From Polytrichum commune (taxonomy: Eukaryota; Streptophyta; Polytrichopsida; Polytrichales; Polytrichaceae): 64,000 bases of DNA. Under the pieces are notes generated by a model, which was given only the letters and a program-made list of their open reading frames with translations, was not told where the DNA came from and did not search any database. Positions 38,209 through 64,000 of the stretch are shown here, piece by piece. A program made the translations under genes and the position numbers. Each line of letters opens with the position of its first letter. Position 1 is the stretch's first letter. Location of the stretch: the NCBI GenBank assembly GCA_950295325.1, contig OX485805.1, positions 43,608,758-43,672,757 of the forward strand, given 5' to 3'.

Positions 38209-41030
38209 AAGCTCTCTACCAATAGGATAGCGAGCTTTCCCTGGGTTCTTGGCCTCGACTCCTAGTGTAAAAGTGGGCCTTAGAAGACTTGTGAAGGCCT
38301 GAGAAAACGCGGTGACGAGAGACATGGTTCGATCTCTGTCTTCAGGTTGTGTTCAAAGTACGAAGAGGTCGGGAAAGATGGACATACCTGGAGGTACGAG
38401 GATGCTCCGCCTCCTCCCCTCTCCGATTCTCCTCCACCGCCTATGGAGGCACCCATATGTATATAGCAGCGTAGATGGAAACGCAAATTCAGATGGGACT
38501 CATTGGTGGCAGGCAGCAGGAGGCACTGGAGTTTAAGAAGAGACTCTTTCCCAAGAGTCGGGCGAAGGCAAATGGTTTTGAGCTGGCTGCAAGAGGAGAC
38601 TCACGGGAAGCAGTTGGGGACGGTCTGGGCAGGCTGGCCTTTGGGCTTGGAACAGCACTGGCACCCCCGAAGCAGAGCTCGTTGGCGAGTGCTTAGCAAC
38701 TTACGGGATCTTCAACCTCCTGTCGGTGAATCCTGGCCATGGCCGGGCTGCAATAAGTTTGAGAATTCATACTTCGCGTAGTAGTCTTAGTCTGCGATTG
38801 CGGTCGTGGATGTGCAGCAGGAAAGGGAAGGACGAGCGGCTGGAAAAACATGGCCCTCGGATACAGATTCCTCTCAGGTTATGCTCATCCCCGCCTGTGT
38901 CTCCTTTTGTTGGTGTAGGAAAATCTTGCTTTCACCCGACAGAGATGCCAACCTTGGTAGAAATAGGCTATGAACTCTATAATTCGATCATGTATTCTGT
39001 GTGGCTGCACATGTTAAGAATCCTCCTTGCATCGGTGAGTGGAATCCCGCAAAGGCTGATCGTGGAGCCGAGCATTCAAGTTTCAGAAGCGGAGGGAAGA
39101 CGCAAAAGTTATAGGAGGTCTAAGTGAAGAGTCCTTTACATTTAGGAAAACTGGTTCCGTAGCCGTTTCGTGATAGTGGATCCCCATTTCTTCGAGGCCT
39201 TTTGTAGCAACAAGTACGACATAAGGATCACAAAGATCAAGACGTGTACCAGAAATACAAAGACATTCCGCACTCTCTGGATAATCGATAGCCTGATCTC
39301 CGTGCCCTCTCTCTGTGATAGAGTTTCATCGATCCTGTTACTTGTCTCGTGATTCAAGCTTATGTAGAAACAGACCAAGGAGTCCATGTCTTATGCATGT
39401 TGTTGAATCTGGATATCACTTGTATACACTCAATGCTCTGTCATGCTAGCCGTAGGGAACTGGTTTGACAATCAACAAATCCATTTGTCATAATTTGACT
39501 ATATGCACCCAGGAGTCTCTTCAGTAGGAGTACATTTACAGAACTTCGGTTTGTGATTCGGCTCTCATTTTGCTTCCCGTGGAACTTTTGTTCATAGTAG
39601 AATTATAGACATACCGCATGCACATATGCATATACCCATCCGATCATTGCGGACTTACCGTGCCATTTCTGCAGTATATGTTCCTGTTGTTAAGTGATAC
39701 GTCAACCTGGGGCTCATCTCTAGATTGATAATTGGTGATTGTGCTCTGCAGATCTGTGTTCCAAGCTGCAGGAACCCTTTCTCAGGGACGTCGTAAGACT
39801 TCTGGTTATTTGAAGAGGAGGTACCCGTACCAGCATGCACGTTATCAACATTTTCTGTGGTATTGTTATGCAAATTATACACCTATATAACGAATCTTTC
39901 AACTCAAACCTCTATAGGTCCTGAAAATACCTTTCTTGCTTGAGATTCTATTGGATTCACAGTAGCCTGGAAGGAAGTAAAGGTGATGCTGGCCGACTTG
40001 AAAGATCCTAGAACTCTGCTGTCCTTCCCACGATTAGTCACCTCGAGGAAGTATTGTTGTGTAGAAAGTGAGACACCGATTCTTGGGTAACATATGGTAC
40101 TATGAAGAAATATCTTGTGTAGGTATCGGAATACCTTTCGAAAGATCCAGAGGCGACTTCTTCTCAATGCAGGTCTCTGCAAAGATTGGCCATAGGGGAA
40201 ACCTTTCAAAGATATGGATAAAGTTGTTTAAAGAGGTGTATGAAATGAAAAAAAGAAATTGATGTTAAAGTCCAGGAAGCCAAAAGGGTCATGGTACTAG
40301 AAGTACATCAAGATGTGGTATAAAGAATAATATTGTGTGGGGATGGAAATTCTTCCAAGTATATTCTTCTAGGTCAATTGCGGAAGATTTTGGTCTTGTA
40401 GAAATTATGCGGGATTCCATATTATTTACGAAGTAATGAAAGGTTAGAAAGGAAGTAGGAAGACCACAATGGTATTGTAATTCCCATCTCTTTGAAGATG
40501 TTGGCCATCTACACGCGGACATCTACACATGGACATTTACGTGTGCAAGATGTGCATCTCCAGAGAGAATAACTTGTTACCACTTATCTTGAGGGAATGT
40601 TCTTTGTGCAGATCTTTGTTGTGGGGTCACAACGTGCATTGCAAGGGCAGTTCTTGGGTATTAAGTATATCAATGAAGGGGGAGAACTGGCTACTACTTA
40701 CAGTTCAACTGGTTCGTTTTCCCTAATTTCGGGTTTAAAATTCAAACTCTAGGAAATGAAGCGAACTACATTTTTGGGAAATTTTACTACTTTAAGTTAA
40801 AATACAATGAACAACCGAAGCATTTTAATGAATAAGCGGTTGACAATGAAGAAGTAAAGAGAGTGAACGAGTTGGCTCAAATTTCTTCACGTTCGCTGAG
40901 GTATATCCATGGTGTTGCTTAAACTAATTGCAGATCTCCGGTGAATGTTGAAGGGTGCTTCTGCCCATCCTCGGATAATCTTTTAGGTGTTATCTTTCTT
41001 TCTTGGTCAAGGTGTGTTTTCTGTGGTCAT
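38209..41030 (+). promoter_or_regulatory. Upstream region of the four-kinase gene
   Basis: No supported coding exon. Sections 38710-38920 and 39845-41150 are well conserved with unit 2, while 38382-38709 is absent there and 38921-39844 is replaced by unrelated sequence. The conserved proximal ~1.3 kb ends in a short leader intron. Promoter elements and the transcription start cannot be fixed from sequence. Some segments might be untranslated upstream exons. Confidence 0.4.
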
Positions 41031-41153: not shown

Positions 41154-44100
41154 ATGGCTAATTATTTGAGGTTTGCTGGAGCTGTCCTAGATGAAATTGA
41201 GAGTGGTTTGTCGACCAGGAGGATCATCTTGCAATTGAACGCCGCAAAGTGCAAGCGCCTCCTTGGAAATCTTAGAAAAACTCATGATCATTTTTATCAG
41301 AGCCTATTGTTCCCAACACGTACACTACGTCAAAAATGTTTTCCATTTTATAAGGAGTTTTATCGCATTGTGGAGCATACAGAAGCAATCGTGAAGGAGT
41401 GCAGTAAGCCGGATTGGCTGGAAGCAGCCATCATGCAAGCGGGCAACCAAGAGGTATTTATACAGATGTCCCGGAAGCTCCATTTCTGCATCAATGGGTT
41501 TACTCAGACCCTTGAGCCTTTTCTTGACATCTGCAGTAACTTTCAGTTCACTGCTCTAAGTGTAACAGTGGAGCAACATGAGAGGGATGAGGACTATTGT
41601 CAAGATTCTTTGAAATTTATGGAACGACTTAAGGAGGTAGTGAACCAACAGGTTTCAGAGGACACCATTACAGATCCTTGGAAACACCAACTCGCAGAAT
41701 ACCTCATTGAACGTGAGAATTACATGTCATCCACAAACCTTGACTTGTGTACATCTCTCCCACAATTCTATGTTGCAAAGCGTGAGTACCCAAGAGTTGG
41801 GGAACCCATTGGGTCAGGCTCAGCTGGATCGGTTCTGAAGGTGCACTGGTTGGGGCTAGAATGTGCTAAAAAACACTTTGCTACTAATCCTGATAAGAGC
41901 AACTCACCACGGAAGTTGGAGCTAATGAAGGAGGTCAGCGCCCTGGTGCATTTAAACCATCCGCATATTGTAAAGCTGCTCTGTGTGAGTATGGAAGGTG
42001 AGGTTTCTTTTTTGATGGAGCTCATGCCAATGAGCCTCCACAATTTCATCAGGAAACGATGGAAGGGGCAGAAATACATCCCCTTTACATTGGCAGCTGC
42101 CACTGACATTATGTTGCAGATTGCCCTAGGCATGGAATACCTTCATGGCAAAGGAGTGGTTCATCGCGACTTGAAATCCCAGAATATCCTTGTCACCCCT
42201 TCAGCTTGTGAAGGACTCTCTGATGAGGGCTATGGAAACATTAAGGTGACAGATTTTGGGTTGTCTAAGACACTGACTCATGAGTTAACTGAGCCTACTG
42301 GGATATTAGGAACTGCTCGTTGGATGGCACCCGAGGTGTTAAGATTGAAAGAAGGCTTGAAACCAAAAATTGATTGGAGGAAAGCGGACACTTACAGCTT
42401 TGCAATGACGTGTTCGGAGATACTCACTGGGGCTACACCTTTCTCTGAAGGTGATTGCAGAACAGCTATGTTGTATGAAAGGATCACCAACGGTGGAGAA
42501 AGACCAAAGCTGCTGTTAGCATGTCCAAAATTTCTAGCATCTTTTTTGACACAATGCTGGCATACAAATCCAGCTCTCCGTCCCAGTTTCACCGAGAGCT
42601 GCAACATGCTTCAACTCCTCCAAGGTTTCCTATTCAGAGGCTCTGACCTGATCCACAGGAGCTGGTCATTAGCAGAAACTTCGAGTTTGGATCAAACGAG
42701 TACACTCAGACGTGCAACAGGGCCAGAGCAGGACATAATCATTAACGTAGGCTTATCCTCGTTGAAGGAGTTGAAGTTGGACAGGTTCTTCAGGTCCTCC
42801 AAGATCTTCAGGTCGCAGTTGATAAGTCCCCAGTGTGACGGGGAGGTTTTGTCATCCATCCTCATGGGGAATTTCCCACAACCAGTGGGTTTACGGGGAG
42901 TACAGGTATTTGATTTTAATTCCTCTCTAAACTATGAGTCAAGGAAGGAATTGGAATTGAGGACGATGGCAAAGTGTAGATATTTTGTAGAGGGGATGAA
43001 GGCATTGACTGACAATCCTCGGAACCATCTGGTGAAATTGCAATACTGGCATTACGCTTCTTTCAGACAGTCAAAACATAACAGACTTTATGTTGTGCAT
43101 GACGCTTGGGCAAGCACTCTTGACGAGCATCTCAGTGGATTAAAGAAGACGCTCCCGTGGAATACACGGTTACATATATTAACTGGATTTATGGCATGTG
43201 TTGTGTACTTCATTGAGCTGATTGAGCTCAATGTGATTCGCTCAATATCTCTCAGCACCAAAAGCATCCTCTTGGACAAGAGCTACAACTTACAATTTAC
43301 TGATGTAAGTCTGGTGCACGACGCTCGATATGTTAAGGCAACCAACGGGGATAATCTGAAAGGCATGGTTTACAAGATTGGAATTTTCATAATGGAGGTT
43401 TTAGGTGGAATCAGGAAGCACGATATTGATACCTCAGATCAATATGCAACAGGAGAGAAACTTACCTTAGATCCACAGTGGGTGCATGGCTTCATTGACC
43501 CGAGGCTGAATACTGGTTACCATACAGGCCAAGCTGGTACTCTCTTGACCCTCAGTCTCATGTGTACACATCCTAATGAGCATGCGAGGCCAACCATCTG
43601 GTCAGCTCGGGATATAATTACCTCAACTGCAGATATGGCAACAAAGCTGACTCCTTCTCAAGACCAAGGGCAATTTTCAGCTCTTGATATCCTGGAGTAC
43701 AACAGAGCTTCTGAAACCACATGTCAAGAGGTGAGGGACATAACTAGCAATTTCTCAACACCCAAAGGATATGGGAAGTACCCCGGGATATTGTCAAATG
43801 GAGAGAAAGTACTGGTGGACCAGTTGCATCCTAGTTCTGCATCTCCGAAAGAGTTTATCGATCAGGTACATTTTCTAATGAAATAATTGTGGATGGAACA
43901 CAACCACTGCATTTCCTCATTTCAATAGTTGGGAGATTATGATATTCATATGGTATGAAGTGACCAGGCCCGGTGTGAAGAATTTGAGATTGCACTTAGG
44001 AGGTATGCAAGCTCATTTCAGTGCCTCACAAGGCCATTCTATGCAGTTCGAGAAACAATTGAGAGGTTTTATAAGAATTTGGGAGCTAGAGTATTATCTC

Positions 44101-47100
44101 AACTGATGTGCCTGATTTTAATGCTTCAATTTGTGTAGACCAGTGTTGGTTTGGTATATAGGTGAATCCATGGTTTCAGTAATCAACATCCATAATGGTA
44201 TGGACGAACCACCCGTGGGTGTCAGAATTATACACCAGTCAAATATTGATATTTGGTTGGTATGTCAAGGTGAGAAATATTTGTACAGCCGAGTCATTAT
44301 TTGGGTCAGTACCATTCGAAGCCATATTGATACTAGGGAGTTTTTTTCCTAGGTATGAAGGTTCTTGCAATGTGTATGGACCCAAATTGTATCGAAAACA
44401 AAAGTGACGTCAGCTCTCTATACCCTACTGGTCTCAAGAAATGTGAAATCCTCATCATAGATACACAGTGGGTATGAGAAAAGGACGATACGAGACCAAC
44501 ACTGGTCTAAACTATATTGAGAGATTTGATTTGTTTGTTCTAGGTCAAGATGTACAAAAAAGTGCCAACTTGCGGTTTGGTCATGAACCCAATTGGCTTC
44601 TGCGTGGAGGAGGGTGAGCGAATACTCATATACAGGGATATGGAGACAGTGCCTGCACAAGTATATCTAGGTGAGTCACAGTAGTTTCGTAGGAATTTGA
44701 TCCTACCAGATTCAATCTTGCAGTTATTATGTGAATGTTGTATGTCGTGTATGGTGATGTTTTGAGGATAGAACTATAGATATTTGGCAGAGGGAATTGC
44801 AAAGGTTTGTCTAATTACATCCAAGCAACACGGGTGGAAGTGCTAAGGAGGTTCTTAAACCATTACCACTTAATTTTCAAATTCATTGTCAGTAGGACAA
44901 TCATTGTTCTTAGAATGCCATCCATAGATTGTGCACATTTAAGGCAATATTATATGCATTAATTATGAGATACTTTGACACTTCGTTCGCGAATGTTTAA
45001 TGAAGCATGTGGTTATAGGCACGAGGGATATGGAGACAATGCCTCGACAAGTATATGTAGGCGAGTCACACTAGTTGCGTAGGAATTTGATCCTATCAGA
45101 TTCAAACTTGCTGTGATAGTTATGTTAGATGATTGCAGTTGTATCTAGTGTGCGTTGATGTTTTGAAGATAGAGATATGTTCTTTGGCAGAGGATAATGC
45201 AAAGGTTTCCCTTTTTACAACCAAACCACAATCAATAGCATTGCAAATCGCAAGAGGTAAATTGACTTTTTTACCATCACCACTTTATTTTGCAGAAACA
45301 TTCAGTTGCACAATCATTGTTCTTAGAGTGCCATCCTTGGATTAGCTGGACATTTCAAGCAATATTATATATGAGATATTTTGACACCTTCATCCCCAGA
45401 TGTTTGATGAAGCATGTGGTTGTGCATGAAATAGGCTTGAATTCGTTATGCAACATGGGCATCGTCCTCCACAACACAACTCTTGATAATATTCATGTGA
45501 CAAGAAATGGATGTGTAATGTTTGGATTACAATTTGAGGAAGAAAACAGCTTGACGAAGTCTGAGTAAGGACTATATTTCTCACTAGCTCTGAAGTCTTG
45601 ATTTTTAGATAGGCTATGTGTGTCACCATCACGTTGTGCTTGAATAGTTAATTATTGGCCTAGTGAACCAGATTATCCTTGTGATCTACTGGTAGGATTC
45701 ATGTGAAACTTTAAAGTCCAGGTATTTCATCCCCCATGATCCTGATTATGCAGGAAACTCTCAAAGCAAATGGAAGATTTTGGTACCATACTGGGGCAGC
45801 TTGTATGCGGGCCAAAATGGCAGTCATCTTTTGGTACACCTATGCACTTGAAGAATATGGTAATGTTCTCCCTTTTAAATCGTGAATTTTCTTGCATTAG
45901 CCTTGTGAACTACAAGAATTAGTTGGGCTCATCACATGCTCCAAGCGTGTGATGATTGCGTCCAATGTCATGACACATCCACAACTTTTCTTATCTATCT
46001 ATCTATGCACTCGATTGGGACTATTTTTAATTCGTCTTTTATGGATCCACGAATACAACATATTATTCGCAAGAATCGTGAGATCAATCTTGAATCATGA
46101 GATCAATCTTGCCGTTGTGATGTTCATGGGTCATGAATTAAGTAAGGTGGAGCATGCTAAACAGTACCCCACCCAAAACCGACATCCTAAAAGCTTCCAC
46201 AATAAGTACATTTTGATTTTGAGAATGTTCACTAGCTTAACATCAACCTCCCGAGTTCCCTGATGCATTTGGATCATGTACCAATAAAACTTTGAATCCT
46301 TGTAACTATTGCATATGACATTCGGATAAGGCATAATGTGATGCATTGGAATCCCTTTCAATTACAAATGAGAAATATTAGGCCTTTGTCCATCTAATAT
46401 AAGTAGATATACTAAGGGTTTTATACAACGGTTTGAGCATTGTCTACTTTATGTGGCCACTTCAACAACTTTGTCAATTCACATGGAGGCATAAATGACT
46501 ATGTTACTTCAATGTTCAACGTGAATGAATTTGTTATTTTACACAAATGGCTAAAGGAGTATTTGCAAGTGAAGTTGAATAAGCTTAGATATTTGTGTAC
46601 ATAACAAGCCATGAATATCAAGAGTTTTGCTTTTGAATGTCTCACTTTTATTATAGATAAACATAGAAAACTAAAAACTAAGATGAATGTTGCAGGCAGT
46701 TCATATTGAGCAGTTTGTGCATCCTGGGTTTCTCAAATTCAACAACTTGGCGATGTCACAACTTGCAATGCTAGCATCGCTGTGCCTAGAAGAGGGGCAT
46801 GCAAGATTGAGTATGGTTGACGTCATTCAAAAGCTAGAAGGAGTGGCGAAATCATGGAGAGGTATGGAAATTCTGTTTTGAGTTGTGTTTCTTACAAATA
46901 GACCTATTTCCTTGTCATTTTTCTCATCAATTTATTTTTGTGCAAATGTTTAGGAAAAGGTTTGTCATTTCTATGAAGGTCTACCACTTCAACAGTAGTT
47001 GAATTGGTTAGAATGTATAGCTTTGAATATATAGATGTCAAACGTCGAGCCAACAACTTGAGTAGCTGGGATACATCTTCACTAGGGATACAGGTGCGAT

Positions 47101-49414
47101 TCAGATCTTCGCCAAATCACGCTACTGGTACCCATTGTAATTCACCCACAAATTCGAAGGTCACCGGATCAATCGGTCATCTTAGAAATTGTGGACACTG
47201 AGGGGCTTAGCGAACTCAGTAAGGCTTTCTAGGAGTATGTACCAATGATTCTATGGTGCTGATGAGATGGTATATTATTATACAACCTTCACTAATTTTG
47301 AGCTGAAGTTGATGGAAGTTCTGATGTTAAACTGATATGTGACAGCTCATGCGGGTACTTTGGAATTGATATCCTCATATGAGAATGTTGCCCGCAAATT
47401 TACTCTCCATGAGCTTGATGCCACTAATGAGAACTTTGGACTGGAGCGTCTACCCGGCGAGGGTGAATCAGGTTGGATGCGGCTGGAGGCGAAGCTGGAA
47501 AGGTCCGGTTTCAGGCAGGCAAGTGAAGGCATCATGTTTATTGCCTGGTGAATGTGTTTCACGTTTGCAGTTTCCTGTCAAGGACAAAATTTGTTGTCCA
47601 GTTGTTGTAGGGATACTAGATACTATAGGTTCTTGTGGCTCATGGGGGGGAGACCGGGAAAATGTGCAGGTTCTTGCAATGAGACAGCTGGATCGAAATG
47701 GGTTCCAAGGCTATCAAGAACCTCTTGTAGAAGCCTTGCTGCAAAGTCTGTCGTATCATCGGAATCTTGTGAATTTAATTGGATATGGTGCCGATAACAA
47801 CCGACTTTTCTTGTTGTACGATTGTGCCCCCTCATCCTTCTTGAAAGATAGGCTATATGGTAAGCTTTTGAATATTCTGTGCAAGTTGTGAAACATTAGA
47901 CTAGTCAGGAAGTTGTGGAATGTTTCAGGAGATGCCTAACATGTGAGGTTGAGAGATGATGCAGTTGTTGTTTGCACATGCAGATTTGGACTGGGTGTCA
48001 AGAATGCGTATTGCCTATGGAGTGGCCAGGGGTCTGGAGTATCTGCATGATAAAGCGAGCCCACCTGTTATTTGTGGAAACCTCAACTCTTCAAAAGTTC
48101 TTTTAGATTGCCAGTCATATCCAAAACTGAATGGTTTTAGGCTTGCTGACATGGGGCCACCGGGTAGTAAGAATGATGTGAATGGGAATGATGGATATTG
48201 CGCTCCCGAATGTGTCATAACTGGGCAGTTCACTTTCAAGTCAGATGTGTACAGCTTCGGCATGGTCTTGTTAGAATTAATTACTGAGCGCAGAGCCATT
48301 GATAATGCGAGGGCAGCTGGGGAGCAGAACCTGGTGGCATGGGTAGAACTCTCAACCGTGTTTCTTGCATATATACAGGTAGTTTGGCCTTGAGATCAGG
48401 CATGATACAGATTGTTGTGCGAGTAGTATAATAGCAAATAATATGGGAATGTGCACCTTCCACGTGGACGAGGAGATGAAGTGGTTGTGTGATAGTAGAG
48501 TGCCTTCAAATGTGTGTAGTTTGAAGCTTTTATGTGTGCATCTTATCTGACAGTGGTATGCAGGGTTGCTTGGAGGTTGGCATGAATACTTGTGCGATTG
48601 TTTGGGCACTGTAGGTGAACTTGTGATTGTAGCAATATAATATGTTTGACAATAAACAAGTGTTTTATGAAGAATACAGATTGATGACTGAAATAGGTGA
48701 TGAAGGTAGGTTAATGGGAATGAATGTAGGTATTTATGTGCTTGGTGATCATTTCCTCAAAGAGGTAAAACTTGCAAACGAGTGGATGATGTATGCTCAT
48801 TGGTAGAGTCACTAGTATCAGTAAAGCTTTTTACATAGTGTTGTGTGTTTAGTGTGACCTCCTAGGTGTATGGAATTAAGCGGTGCTGCAAATGTTTAGT
48901 ATAAATTACATTTCTATAAAGCATAAAGGATAGCACAAATAGGTATGTTTGGCAAGTCTGATTTTGTTGTCATTTTTCTCCTACAATTACCCCGGAATGT
49001 TGATTGAAGGATTTCAGAGTTATGCTTGCTTTTCCTCTTGAAATTCCTAACTGGAAACGTGAGGTTTGAAGGATGCGCTTGATGTTTTTGTTTTTGTTAT
49101 ATTCTATAAAATTTATAGAGTTCGGATTGTCAGTGGCTCCTTTAGGAATATGATATAAGAGTCTCTTGAATCACAAGTGAGGTTTGTAAGTTTGATACTG
49201 ATCGCACAAATTGCAAATGATACTGCAGGCACGACCATTCTTTGAGCATAGCCACGAGATTTTTCCATCCATTCTGAATCCCGAGCTCCTGGCATGCACT
49301 TTGGATTTAGCAGCCCAGTGTTTGGAACAAGACGCAGTAGCTCGTCCTCCTATTAAAGATGTGGTGTCAAAGATGGAGGACTGTATGGCTATGGAAGGGT
49401 TCCGTTTTGACTGA
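41154..49414 (+). CDS. Four-kinase-domain protein: one kinase plus three pseudokinases
   Basis: Eleven exons: 41154-43865, 44544-44670, 45191-45256, 45360-45564, 45754-45859, 46696-46861, 46996-47136, 47346-47518, 47571-47859, 47984-48342, 49229-49414. Phases close over 4530 nt, giving 1509 aa. Residues 1-205 are helical, resembling the DUF1221/MLKL-type N-terminus of some plant kinases. Kinase 1 (about 212-490) is complete: GSGSAGSV loop (220-227), K240, E260, HRDLKSQN (337-344), DFG (367-369), APE (392-394). Kinase 2 (about 575-825) has SIS for HRD and DVS for DFG. Kinase 3 (about 860-1125) has D889 for the ATP-binding Lys, LHN for HRD and MFG for DFG. Kinase 4 (about 1190-1505) is PBS1/RLCK-VII-like but has R1270 for Lys, GN for RD and GFR for DFG. 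Intron 8 (47519-47570) uses a GC donor. Stopping at 43886 instead would give a 910-aa form. No signal peptide or membrane segment is seen. The borders of exons 3-4 and 7 are less certain. Confidence 0.82.
44635..45413 (+). repeat. ~390-bp tandem duplication inside the kinase gene
   Basis: Units 44635-45024 and 45025-45413 both start GGGATATGGAGACA and share the same landmarks: GTAGGAATTTGATCCTA, a CAGATTCAA block, a GATGTTTTGA block and the exon-3 sequence after TTGGCAG. Exon 2's end is used from the first unit and exon 3 from the second. The spare copies of each have decayed and now lie in intron 2. Confidence 0.75.
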
Positions 49415-49525
49415 ATTGGAAGTGATTTGAAGCTACAAGTTGCTACTCCAGTGTGCAATTGTCATTACGCATCAGTAAACTTGCAATGTAATTGATTATC
49501 GAGAGCTTATTGATTATTGATTAAA

Positions 49526-50035
49526 CAAAGCTGACTCTTTCTCAACCCCAAGGGCAATTTCCAGCTCTTCATTTCCTCGAGTACAACGGAGCTTCTGAAT
49601 ACACATGTCAAGGCGTGAGGGACATGACTAGCAATTTCTCGACACCCAAAGGATATGGGAAATATCTTGGGACATTGTCAAATGGAGAGAAAGTACTGGT
49701 GGAGCAGTTGCATCCTAGTTCTGCATCTCCACAAGAATTTTTCGATCAGATGCATTTTCTAATGAAATGATTGTGAATGCCACACAACCACTGCATTTCC
49801 TCATTTCAACAGCTTGCAGGTTATGGTATTTATATGGTATGAAGTGACCGGGCCTGGTGTGAAGGACTTGAGATTGCACTTAGGAGGCATGCAAGTCCAT
49901 AGCAGTGCCTCACAAGATTATTCTATGCACTTCAAGAAACGATTGAGAGGTTTGATAAGAATCTCGGAACTAGAGTATTATATCAACTGGGTGCCTGGTT
50001 TTAATGCTTCAATTTGTCTAGACCGGTGTTGGTTT
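49526..50035 (+). pseudogene. Orphan copy of the kinase gene's exon 1 end and intron 1 start
   Basis: About 110 bp after the stop codon, the sequence repeats 43645-44154. The frame corresponding to residues about 831-910 is still open (it includes [13 protein letters not shown]), but the splice donor GTACAT has become ATGCAT. It lacks the flanking kinase parts. It is best read as a leftover of an earlier local duplication. The following 78-codon open frame at 49814-50047 matches intron 1 sequence and is probably not a gene. Confidence 0.7.
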
Positions 50036-50045
50036 GAGCACGCTT

Positions 50046-59447: not shown

Positions 59448-61852
59448 TCACACACGGACAAAGCAAGAGCAAGAAACAAGAAGTGAAGAAGAAAATGATG
59501 AGTGCAGATTAAAAGTGTGAAGGGTCTAGGTTTGGAGTTGCCATTCGTTTGATCCAACGGTGGAGATCAAATGCAAATATTTTATTTGTATACTTGTTGA
59601 CCCCAAAGCCCTTTGTTGACCCCCCAATCCATGAGGGTTCCTTTTGTGCCTTAGGGGCCATCTCAGAAACAACATTTTATAGAATATAGTATTCAATCAA
59701 TTGTTGGTGTTGACTCCTAGTCTAAAGCTCTTCGGATAAGCCTTAAAGCTCTCTACCAATAGGATGGCAAGATTTCCCTCGGCCCTTGGCCTCGACTCCT
59801 AGTGTAAAGTGGGCCTCAGAAGACTTGTGAAGGCCTGGAAAAATGCGGTGACGAGAGACATGGTTCAATCTTTGTCTTCCAGTTGTGTTCAAAGTACGAA
59901 GAGGTCGGGAAAGATGGCCCTTCAACCTCATGTCGGTGAATCCTGGCCATGGCCGGGCTGCAATAAGTTTGAGAATTCATACTTCGCATTGTAGTCTTAG
60001 TCTGCGATTGCGGTCGTGGATGTGCAGCAGGAAAGGGAAGGACGAACGGGTGGAAGAGCATGGCCCTCGTATCCAGATTTCTCTCAGGTTATACTCATCC
60101 CCGCATGTGTCTCCTTTAGTGGGTGTAGGATGATGCAAGTATGCTCAATTTACACAAGTATCTGTGTGATTAACTTTGCAACTGAAATACAATTTTATTC
60201 TCTATGTATTTAGCACCTTACAGAATATTGCTTACAATAACTCCTACGCTTGGTGGATCTTGCTTATCCTATGCATTTCCATATCTAGAACTCATGGTTC
60301 TCACATGCTTCTCTCTGATACACTGCATCTGTTCATTTTGGCGTTGGCTGATTTGGGCCTTCTGTCTGAAAAAAGAAAAAAAGAAAAAAAAAGATACACT
60401 GCATCTGCTAAGATAACTTTCCCTGTAATGCTTCCCGAATGTAATCCAGCAATTCTTTGTTTCACCTGGAACCTTCCATTCTAGAAAGTTCTGAGATCGT
60501 CTAACAGAGTCTGTCCAAAGTAACTGGATGAACGCACTAGATGAACGATGGCCCTTCAACATTTTCTGTGGTATTGTTATGCAAATTGTACACCTATATA
60601 ACGAATCTTTCAACTCAAACTTCTATAGGTCCTGAAAATACCTTTCTTCCTTGAGATCCTATTGGATTCACAGTAGCCTGGAAGGAAGGTGATGCTGGCC
60701 GACTTGAAAGATCCTAGAACTCTGCTGTCCTTCCTAAGATTAGTCACCTCGAGGAAGGTGTAGAAAGTGAGACACCGATTCTTGGGTAACACATGGTACT
60801 ATAAAGAAATATCTTGTGTAGGTATCGGAATACCTTTCGAAAGATCCAGAGGCGATTTCTTCTCAATGCAGGTCTCTGCAAAGATTGGCCAGAGGGGAAA
60901 CCTTTCAAAGATATGGATAAAGTTGTTTAAAGAGGTGTATGTAATGAAAAAAAGAAATTGATGTTAAAGTCCAGGAAGCCAAAAGGGTCATGGTACTAGA
61001 AGTACATCAAGATGTGGTATAAAGAATAATATTGTGTGGGGATGGAAATTCTTCCAAGTATATTCTTCTAGGTCAATTGCGGAAGATTTTGGTCTTGTAG
61101 AAATTATGCGGGATTCCATATTATTTACGAAGTAATGAAAGGCCAGATAGGAAGTAGGAAGACCACAATGGTATTGTAATTCCCATCTCTTTGAAGATGT
61201 TGGCCATCTACACGCGGACATCTACACATGGACATTTACGTGTGCAAAATGTGCATCTCCAGAGAGAATAACTTGTTACCACTTATCTTGAGGGAATGTT
61301 CTTTGTGCAGATCTTTGTTGTGGGGTTACAACGTGCATTGTGAGGGCAGTTCTTGGGCATTAAGTATATCAATGAAAGGGGAGAACTGGCTACTACTTAC
61401 AGTTCAACTGGTTCGTTTCCCCTAATTTCGGGTTTAAAATTCAAACTCTAGGAAATGAAGCGAACTACATTTTTGGGAAATTTTACTACTTTAAGTTAAA
61501 ATACAATGAAAAACCCAAGCATTTCAATGAATAAGCGGTTGACAATGAAGAAGTAAAGAGAGTGACCGAGTTGGCTCAAATTTCTCCACGTTCGCTGAGG
61601 TATATCCATGGTGTTGCTTAAACTAATTGCAGATCTCCGGTGTATGTTGAAGGGTCCTTCTGCTCATCCTCAGATAATCTTTTAGGTGTTATCTGTCTTT
61701 CTTGGTCAAGGTGTGTTTCCTGTGGTCATGTAAGTGAACTAATTTTCACCTCGAAGTAATCTTCTTGTCATCTCTTGCTTTTGCGTGCAGGAACTTGAGA
61801 CCAGGGCGCACTGTGCACTTCCTGATTAGGCAGGATATGCTCGCTGACAACA
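59448..61852 (+). promoter_or_regulatory. Upstream region of the second kinase gene
   Basis: Homologous to the upstream region of unit 1 but without the MITE, and with 60131-60555 in place of 38921-39844. It holds the empty MITE target TTA at 59743-59745 and an A-rich run near 60370-60395. The leader intron signals (GTAAGT donor, GCGTGCAG acceptor) are intact just before 61853. No coding exon is supported. Confidence 0.4.
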
Positions 61853-64000
61853 ATGGCTAATTATTTGAGGTTTGCTGGAGCTGTCCTATATGAAATTGAG
61901 GGTGGTTTGTCGACCAGGAGGATCATCTTGCAATTGAACGACGCACAGTGCAGTCGCCTCCTTGGAAATCTTAGAAGAACTCATGATCATTTTTACCTGA
62001 GCCTATTGTTCCCAACACGTACACTACGTCAAAAATGTTTTCCATTTTATAAGGAGTTCTTTCGCATTGTGGAGCATACAGAAGCAATCGTGAAGTAGTG
62101 CAGTAAGCCGGATTGGCTGGAAGCAGCCATCATGCAAGCGGGCAACCAAGAGGTATTTATACAGATGTCCCGGAAGCTCCATTTCTGCATCAATGGGTTT
62201 ACTCAGACCCTTGAACCTTTTCTTGACATCTGCAGTGACATTGCGTTCACTGCTCCAAGTGTAACAGTGGAGCAACATAAGGAGGACTTCCGTCACGATT
62301 CTTCGAATTTTATGGCACGACTTAAGGAGGTCGTGAACCAACAGGTTTCAGAAGAGACCATTATAGTTCCTTGGAAACACCAACTCGCAGAATACCTCAT
62401 TGAACGTGAGAATTACATGTCATCCACAAACCTTGACTTGTATACATCTCTCCCACAATTCTATGTTGCAAAGCGTGAGTACCCAAGAGTTGGGGAACCC
62501 ATTGGGTCAGGCTCAGCTGGATCGGTTCTGAAGGTGCACTGGTTGGGGCTAGAATGTGCTAAAAAACACTTTGCTACTAATCCTGATAAGAGTAACTCAC
62601 CACGGAAGTTGGAGCTAATGAAGGAAGTGAGCGCCCTGGTGCATTTAAGCCATCCACATATTGTAAAGCTGCTCTGTGTGAGTATGGAACGTGAGGTTTC
62701 TTTTTTGATGGAGCTCATGCCGATGAGCCTCAATAATTTCATCAAGAAACGATGGAAGGGGCAGGAATACGTCCCCTTTACATTGGCAGCTGCCACTGAC
62801 ATTATGTTGCAGATTGCCCTAGGCATGGAATACCTTCATGGCAAAGGAGTGGTTCATCGCGACTTGAAATCCCAGAATATCCTTGTCACCCCTTCAGCTT
62901 GTGAAGGACTCTCTGATGAGGGCTATGGAGACATTAAGGTGACAGATTTTGGGTTGTCTAAGACACTGACTCATGAGTTAACTGAGCCTACTGGGATATT
63001 AGGAACTATTCGTTGGATGGCACCGGAAGTGTTAAGATTGAAAGAAGGATTAAAACCAAAAATTGATTGGAGGAAAGCCGACACTTACAGCTATGCAATG
63101 ACGTGTTCGGAGATACTCACTGGGGCTACACCTTTCTCTGAAGGTGATTGCAGAATAGCAATGTTGTATGAAAGGATCACCAAGGGTGGAGAAAGACCAG
63201 AGCTGCCTTGGGCATGTCCAAAATTTCTAGCATGTTTGTTGACACAATGCTGGGATACAAGTCCAGCTCTCCGTCCAAGTTTCACCGAGATCTGCAACGT
63301 GCTTCAACTCCTCCAAGGTTTCCTATTCAGAGGCTCTGAACTGATCCACAGGAGCTGGTCATTAGCAGAAACTTCGAGTTTGGATCAAACGAGTACACTC
63401 AGACGTGCAACAGGGCCAGAGCAGGACATAATCGTTAACGTAGGCTTATCCTCGTTGAAGGAGATGAAGTTGGACAGGTTCTTCAGGTCCTCCAAGATCT
63501 TCAGGTCGCAGTTGATAAGTCCCCAGTGTGATGGGGAGGTTTTGTCATCCATCCTCATGGGGAATTTCCCACAACCAGTGGGTTTACGGGGAGTACAGGT
63601 ATTTGATTTTAATTCCTCTCTAATCTATGAGTCAAGGAAGGAATTGGAATTGAGGACGATGGCAAAGTGTAGATATTTTGTAGAGGGGATGAAGGCATTG
63701 ACTGACAATCCTCGGAACCATCTGGTGAAATTGCAATACTGGCATTACGATTCTTCTGGTCTTTATGTTGTGCATGACGCTTGGTCAGGCACTCTTTACG
63801 AGCATCTCAGTGGATTAAAGAAGACGCTCCCGTGGAATACACGGTTACATATATTAACTGGATTCATGGCATGTGTTGTGTACTTCATGGAGCTGATTGA
63901 GCTCAATGTGATTCGCTCCATTTCGCTCAGCACCAACAGCGTCCTTCTGGACAAGAGCTACAACTTACAGTTTACTGATGTAAGTCTGGTGGTGCACGAT
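61853..64000 (+). pseudogene. Second copy of the four-kinase gene, stop at codon 82, partial
   Basis: It matches 41154-43320 of unit 1. The reading frame is interrupted by TAG at 62096-62098 in place of a Glu codon, within the helical N-terminal region. After that it is open to the window end. The only length changes are in frame: two codons lost near 62280, six lost near 63751 and one gained near 63990. Kinase 1 keeps its glycine loop, Lys, [11 protein letters not shown] and APE, with GTIRWMAPE for GTARWMAPE. The next ATG, at about 62131, would give a protein lacking the first ~92 residues, so it could be a recent pseudogene or a shortened gene. The last two kinase-like domains are outside the window. 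Confidence 0.8.

Follow-up and report, generated by a model that had tools for sequence, protein, structure and literature searches.

Plant tandem kinase-pseudokinase proteins (TKPs), such as WTK1/Yr15, Sr62, Pm24 and RPG1, join a complete kinase to a degenerate one, often of a different subfamily (PMC6170490, PMC8956640; papers are cited throughout for their available excerpts). The plant tandem kinases so far tested come from cereals, and in one model proposed for wheat the pseudokinase is an effector decoy that works with the active kinase (PMC8956640). In AtMLKL, a plant MLKL, the N-terminal domain is joined to a kinase domain that is dead; Pm13 likewise joins an MLKL_NTD to a kinase, here with all key residues (PMC10951266), and plant MLKL and RPW8-type helical bundles are able to trigger cell death (PMC9950082, PMC10951266). 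The Pkn-NLR (or PNL) class carries an N-terminal domain and a kinase ahead of NB-ARC and LRR (PMC3352924, PMC11218826). It is dominant in mosses and was not recovered from liverworts (PMC3352924), and its N-terminal kinases caused mild ion leakage in Nicotiana, the response to the moss kinase being modest and variable (PMC11218826). Here, we analyze a 64,000-nt stretch of the moss Polytrichum commune (OX485805.1, C3 in our locus labels), called the window throughout, and a gene within it at 41154–49414 (+). Our reading, to which we give about an even chance, is that this one gene encodes one protein composed of an MLKL/HeLo-like N-terminus, a complete kinase (kinase 1) and three dead kinases (domains 2 to 4), forming an executor with decoy-type sensing.

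The gene resembles TKPs in that at least two kinase domains lie in one spliced frame (four, judged by sequence) and that complete and degenerate kinases are both present. The named TKPs, however, have two kinase domains rather than four, and their complete kinase is receptor-kinase-type, whereas here it is MLKL-type and an MLKL-like N-terminus is added. That N-terminus, if real, would also depart from the 92 TKPs of PMC6170490, for which the excerpts describe no other conserved domain; Lr9 and Pm36 are among the later TKPs that do have additional parts. Compared with the Pkn-NLRs, whose N-terminal domain and kinase occur at three loci of this genome, the window gene has three pseudokinases in place of NB-ARC and LRR, neither of which was matched by Pfam in exon 1 or in the spliced domains 3 and 4. 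The N-terminus and kinase of the window family align in order with the plant MLKL structure 6LBA, but kinase 1 is complete and so is not a pseudokinase of the AtMLKL kind, and the excerpts on AtMLKL and Pm13 describe no further kinase domains, whereas the window gene has three more. Domain 4 is related to the RLCK-VII kinases PBS1 and PBL2, as judged by its PBL2 match and intron positions, but is here fused and dead. Because each part has known relatives, the gene is not categorically new. It is nevertheless a real and unusual tandem-kinase gene, whose assembly of parts did not come up in the literature searched. By title and abstract, the four-domain architecture was absent from the literature matches listed, which cover subscription papers and preprints poorly, and no relevant paper was among those listed for the PDB codes 6KA4 and 6LBA. 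A survey published in 2025, which covers tandem kinases in plants broadly, may already include comparable moss proteins.

We rebuilt the gene as 10 exons with a single open frame of 1404 aa. The frame of exon 1 is open from 41127 to a stop at 43884–43886 and holds, from the ATG at 41154, the 910 codons given in a preliminary description of this locus. Splicing at 43865 onto nine further exons carries the frame to a stop at 49414 with every phase consistent. The preliminary description had proposed a 1509-aa product with ten downstream exons, which we could not reproduce; the kinase-scaffold strings that it quoted and the final ARP are present in our spliced product. Splice sites are GT-AG throughout, with the GC donor of exon 7 as the sole exception, and the protein start, MANY, is common to the window gene and a relative (L018). 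Exon structure, domain ancestry, motif loss and copy variation are established by computation. The features are as follows, where L001 and L008 are close copies of the gene and L009 is an active-looking kinase gene on C2.

41154–43865, + strand: exon 1, 904 aa, encoding the MLKL-like N-terminus, kinase 1, pseudokinase 2 and the start of pseudokinase 3; all nine copies retain the GT donor.
41154–41765, + strand: N-terminal domain, about aa 1–204; family profile alignment with 6LBA starting at residue 5, with weak MLKL_N, RPW8 and DUF1221 matches in relatives.
41769–42638, + strand: kinase 1, aa 206–495; Pfam PF07714, E = 1.4e-45; invariant K/E/HRD/DFG/APE.
42639–43643, + strand: linker and putative receptor-like-kinase-like pseudokinase 2, aa 496–830; PDB 6cth, E = 3e-7; profile E = 5e-7; motifs lost.
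43644–43865, + strand: linker and N-lobe start of pseudokinase 3, from Pfam and phmmer on the spliced domain.
44544–44670, + strand: exon 2, pseudokinase 3; splice sites in all nine copies; no frameshifts and a single 6-bp insertion.
45191–45256, + strand: exon 3, pseudokinase 3; splice sites in 9 of 9 copies.
45435–45564, + strand: exon 4, pseudokinase 3, with LHN replacing HRD; splice sites in 9 of 9 copies.
45754–45859, + strand: exon 5, pseudokinase 3, the preceding activation segment mostly missing; splice sites in 9 of 9 copies.
46696–46861, + strand: exon 6, which completes pseudokinase 3; splice sites present in all nine copies.
47105–47218, + strand: candidate extra linker exon of 38 aa, unproven; flanked by AG and GT and open in eight of the nine copies.
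47346–47518, + strand: exon 7, start of pseudokinase 4, with a GC donor identical to that in the active C2 RLCK gene L009.
47670–47859, + strand: exon 8, pseudokinase 4, Lys to Arg; sites kept in the window, L001 and L008.
47984–48342, + strand: exon 9, pseudokinase 4, with CGN and GFR, APE kept; sites kept in all 3 copies having exon 9; 66% identity to L009.
49229–49414, + strand: exon 10, the last part of pseudokinase 4 with the stop codon; acceptor common to L001, L008 and L009.
49524–50036, + strand: downstream relic of the linker and domain 3 start, an 88% copy of 43640–44153.

Conservation across related copies was used to evaluate this gene model. We searched the genome with the exon 1 protein and scored 50 of 772 candidates, so our copy counts are minimum values. 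Of the 50, eleven reach at least 85% identity and define at least nine loci: the window gene, seven further copies that follow it consecutively on C3 (43.67–43.86 Mb), and a single copy on C1. The other 39 are 31–36% identical and represent the wider kinase family. All eight non-window copies were retrieved and compared. The nine are 91–97% identical over a common 6.4 kb, and an unrooted maximum-likelihood tree places them in three groups: the window gene with the C1 copy, L002 with L008, and L003 to L007. Trees of separate gene parts partly disagree, so exchange between copies is likely.

Across exons 1 to 6 of the nine copies, every donor is GT (54) and every acceptor AG (45), 99 of 99 sites in total, and exons 2 to 6 differ in length only once, by 6 bp, with no frameshift. 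Gap events number 46 in 2401 bp of introns versus 1 (of 6 bp) in the 595 bp of exons 2 to 6, where 11.4 were expected (Poisson P = 1.4e-4), and 8.4 frameshifting gaps of up to 30 bp were expected there and none seen (P = 2.2e-4), both P values being approximate because gaps were treated as independent and uniform. Stop codons are likewise depleted in these exons, with 5.9 expected and 1 seen, in L008 (P = 0.018). Thus, the maintenance of splice sites and frame in nine copies, the depletion of indels and stops, and full frames of 1404 aa in the window and 1414 aa on C1 favor a single gene, and they bear out the earlier claim that one gene encodes one active-looking kinase and three dead ones.

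Kinase 1 retains the full set of catalytic motifs. K240, E260, H337-R338-D339, K341, N344, D367-F368-G369 and A392-P393-E394 are invariant in 14 aligned family members, the window gene and 13 relatives (L013, with a longest open frame of 421 aa, was omitted from the 14 fetched), and so the retention of Lys, HRD, DFG and APE noted previously for the window gene extends through the family. The window N-terminus and kinase 1 are 27–34% identical to the 13 relatives, three of which are NB-ARC genes. A profile of the 14 sequences matched 6LBA over residues 5–512 (E = 1.9e-73), the top of 759 distinct PDB sequences at the cut used, with 6KA4 third; we take both structures to be Arabidopsis MLKLs. 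The single window sequence matches 6LBA across the kinase only. Among 12 aligned N-termini (L013, L020 and L022 omitted), Pfam at E up to 1 gave weak matches to MLKL_N in four, RPW8 in two and DUF1221 in two (best E values 0.006, 4.4e-5 and 0.022). The window N-terminus alone matched none of these three families in Pfam, and a profile of the 12 N-termini found nothing in PDB better than E = 0.23. The MLKL/DUF1221-like N-terminus of the preliminary description is accordingly upheld, though less firmly: it is indicated by the family profile over nearly all of 6LBA and by the weak matches in relatives, and is not detected from the window sequence or the N-terminal profile on their own. The domain is probably helical. 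In all three long frames scanned (L023, L024 and L025), the N-terminus and kinase precede NB-ARC, and LRRs were found in L023 and L024, whose retrieved stretch extended far enough; a short frame, L012, contains the kinase alone. The best reading of these alignments is that the N-terminus and kinase 1 are the same module as that which heads the moss Pkn-NLR (PNL) receptors.

We read the motifs of domains 2 to 4 by alignment with two active kinases of the same genome, the alignments of domains 2 and 3 being weak in places. As first described, the catalytic Asp and other key residues are gone from all three. In domain 2, Lys is replaced by Glu, HRD by RSIS and DFG by DVS, which keeps the Asp and loses the Phe and Gly, and there is no APE. 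In domain 3, Lys is replaced by Asp and HRD by LHN, the Asp of DFG is gone, and the activation segment is mostly missing. Domain 2 matched receptor-like kinases (RLKs) in PDB, both as a sequence (6cth) and as a five-copy profile, at the E values listed above, while domain 3 matched PF07714 (E = 1.8e-6) and, best in PDB, 2qkw_B (E = 8.5e-7), presumably tomato Pto. By these matches, both domains are receptor-kinase-like, though degenerate.

Domain 4 has a different ancestry. Its Lys is replaced by Arg, HRD by CGN and DFG by GFR, while APE is kept; it matches Pfam at E = 3e-19, and its best PDB match is PBL2 (E = 2e-49). Outside the family, its closest relatives in the genome are L009 (C2:19.54 Mb) and L010 (C2:19.55 Mb). 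Both look like active RLCK genes of the PBS1/PBL type, have YRD, DFG and GDK intact, and give the same peptide matches to domain 4. Identity to L009 is 66% in exon 9 and 55%, 45% and 39% in the other pieces. Five of six internal exon boundaries are common to both, including the rare GC donor, with CAG before the junction and GCAAGTGAA after it; the one that differs is the exon 9 acceptor, exon 9 starting shorter in domain 4. Synonymous divergence (dS) from L009 is 0.81 and nonsynonymous divergence (dN) 0.29, a ratio of 0.36. By sequence, domain 4 is a divergent relative of the active C2 gene, which is of the RLCK-VII (PBL/PBS1) type. The loop with GDK in L009 has become GSK in domain 4 and the four residues after it are absent, leaving 19 residues instead of 23. 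In PBS1, the matching GDK site is cleaved by AvrPphB, and this loop is therefore a natural place to search for effector recognition. A stand-alone domain 4 gene was judged unlikely, with no start codon within or just before exon 7.

Plausibly, the pseudokinase array occupies the place of NB-ARC-LRR on the Pkn-NLR executor module, and the protein is a decoy-type immune receptor. In the proposed mechanism, the N-terminus and kinase 1 would be the executor, and domains 2 to 4 would be both sensor and brake. The pseudokinases would restrain the executor and serve as decoys for effectors that attack RLK and RLCK-VII kinases. Binding or cleavage by an effector would change the shape of the pseudokinases and free kinase 1 and the helical bundle, which could then signal or harm membranes, leading to cell death. 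We infer transcription as one mRNA, kinase activity, decoy sensing and cell death. The gene has multiplied in tandem and domain 4 has been shortened in particular lineages, a pattern often seen at immune loci. The broader proposal, that mosses made a single-chain immune receptor without NB-ARC-LRR by uniting an MLKL-type executor and three dead RLK/RLCK-VII baits in one polypeptide, is tentative, and we place it somewhat short of an even chance.

Several observations weigh against our reading. The N-terminus is linked to MLKL through profiles alone. Pfam recognizes the first, third and fourth of the four kinase folds claimed in the preliminary description, and domain 2 has no match at E up to 10. 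Single-sequence structure models were poor, with a mean pLDDT of 39 for the N-terminus and kinase 1 and 33 for domain 2. Exon 1 is disrupted in four of the nine copies (L002, L004, L007 and L008), and all four domains are encoded by only two (the window gene and the C1 copy). Variable columns make up 18.5% of exons 2 to 6 and 19.2% of exon 1, compared to 21.5% of introns. Omega, computed against the intron mutation spectrum, was 0.90 overall for exons 1 to 6 in the five intact copies (P = 0.18) and 0.91 in all nine (P = 0.14). By part, the five intact copies gave about 0.95 for the N-terminus, 0.72 for kinase 1 (P = 0.094), 1.22 for domain 2 and 0.73 for domain 3 (P = 0.078), and all nine gave 1.06, 0.64 (P = 0.010), 1.26 and 0.73 (P = 0.028), respectively. 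Pooled Nei-Gojobori ratios between pairs of the five intact copies were 0.75 for the N-terminus, 0.61 for kinase 1, 0.93 for domain 2 and 0.52–0.58 for parts of domain 3. Overall, the frame is kept while amino-acid constraint is weak, which fits fast-evolving immune genes and, equally, a young relaxing array.

The copies also differ in how much of the protein they encode. Five of nine are open through exon 6 (the window gene, C1, L003, L005 and L006), with predicted products of 1404 aa for the window, 1414 aa for C1, which carries a different tail, 1220 aa for L006, 1214 aa for L005 and 1109 aa for L003. The last three end before the C-lobe of domain 4, and this shortened sensor may reflect different specificities or loss of function. 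In a genome search with exon 9, only the window, C1 and L008 exceeded 68% identity; since exon 9 is present in two of the three tree groups, it was probably lost in the third. In L008, exons 7 to 9 are open and exon 10 has a stop and small insertions.

The frameshifts in exon 1 of four copies, the scarcity of full ones, the near-neutral omega in several parts of the gene, exons almost as variable as introns and the domain 3 relic just downstream of the gene could all be accounted for by a decaying array, in which local shuffling made the fusion and the copies are now drifting to pseudogenes. We regard this as unlikely, though it deserves real weight. Under such decay, exons 2 to 6 would not be expected to stay in frame in all nine copies despite 46 gap events in the introns, nor domain 4 to be open in the window and on C1 at a dS of about 0.8 from its active relative with a dN/dS of 0.36, and the omega values of kinase 1 and domain 3 are below 1 in both sets of copies. 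It is also possible, but improbable, that the dead kinases merely hold kinase 1 in check or serve as its scaffold, in a JAK-like manner and within some pathway of development or stress that involves no pathogen sensing. Pseudokinases often regulate an adjoining active kinase, and kinase 1 is intact; however, the tandem growth in copy number, the variable domain 4 and the fast domain 2 are better suited to immunity, and the same module heads NLR-type genes. Least probable is a division into two or more genes, the first encoding a protein of 910 aa that stops at 43886 and the others being kinase-like genes downstream of it. Such a division would agree with the open frame of exon 1 up to that stop, the different ancestry of domain 4 and a joining of parts read from sequence alone, but not with the retention of the GT donor at 43866 by all nine copies, the splitting of domain 3 between exon 1 and exons 2 to 6 at a phase-0 junction, or the frame of exon 7, which has no Met after a stop four codons upstream, although an unseen 5′ exon could provide one.

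If the one-protein reading holds, a moss would have a more elaborate form of tandem kinase, one that has an MLKL-like executor and four kinase domains, and TKPs, Pkn-NLRs and MLKLs, three families of immune proteins, would be connected by one common module. The gene also allows a direct question to be asked: when pseudokinases replace NB-ARC-LRR on the same executor, is the result still an effector-triggered switch?

Elsewhere in the window, four other long frames had no Pfam match at E up to 0.01, and Rfam at gathering thresholds found no match anywhere. Positions 44634–45014 and 45024–45421 form a tandem repeat (74%) that starts at the end of exon 2 and extends into the introns after it; exon 3 sits in the second unit, and the first has, by eye, no usable counterpart. 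The relic at 49524–50036 adjoins the 3′ end of the gene and is a remnant of another domain 3 start. A second tandem copy starts within the window at 61853–64000 and runs on into L002, with a stop and frameshifts in exon 1. The C1 copy (C1:66.11–66.12 Mb; L001, L028 and L029) is dispersed and 97% identical to the window gene over the common 6.4 kb; its likeness to the first window copy stops at window positions 39845 and 50461, and the sequence farther upstream is instead similar to that flanking the second window copy (60131–61601). At C1:11.03 Mb, one 1137-aa frame (L030:329–3739, − strand) contains two tandem modules of MLKL-like N-terminus and kinase, both with HRD and DFG, and C1:10902312 lies within a comparable long frame of 1167 aa.

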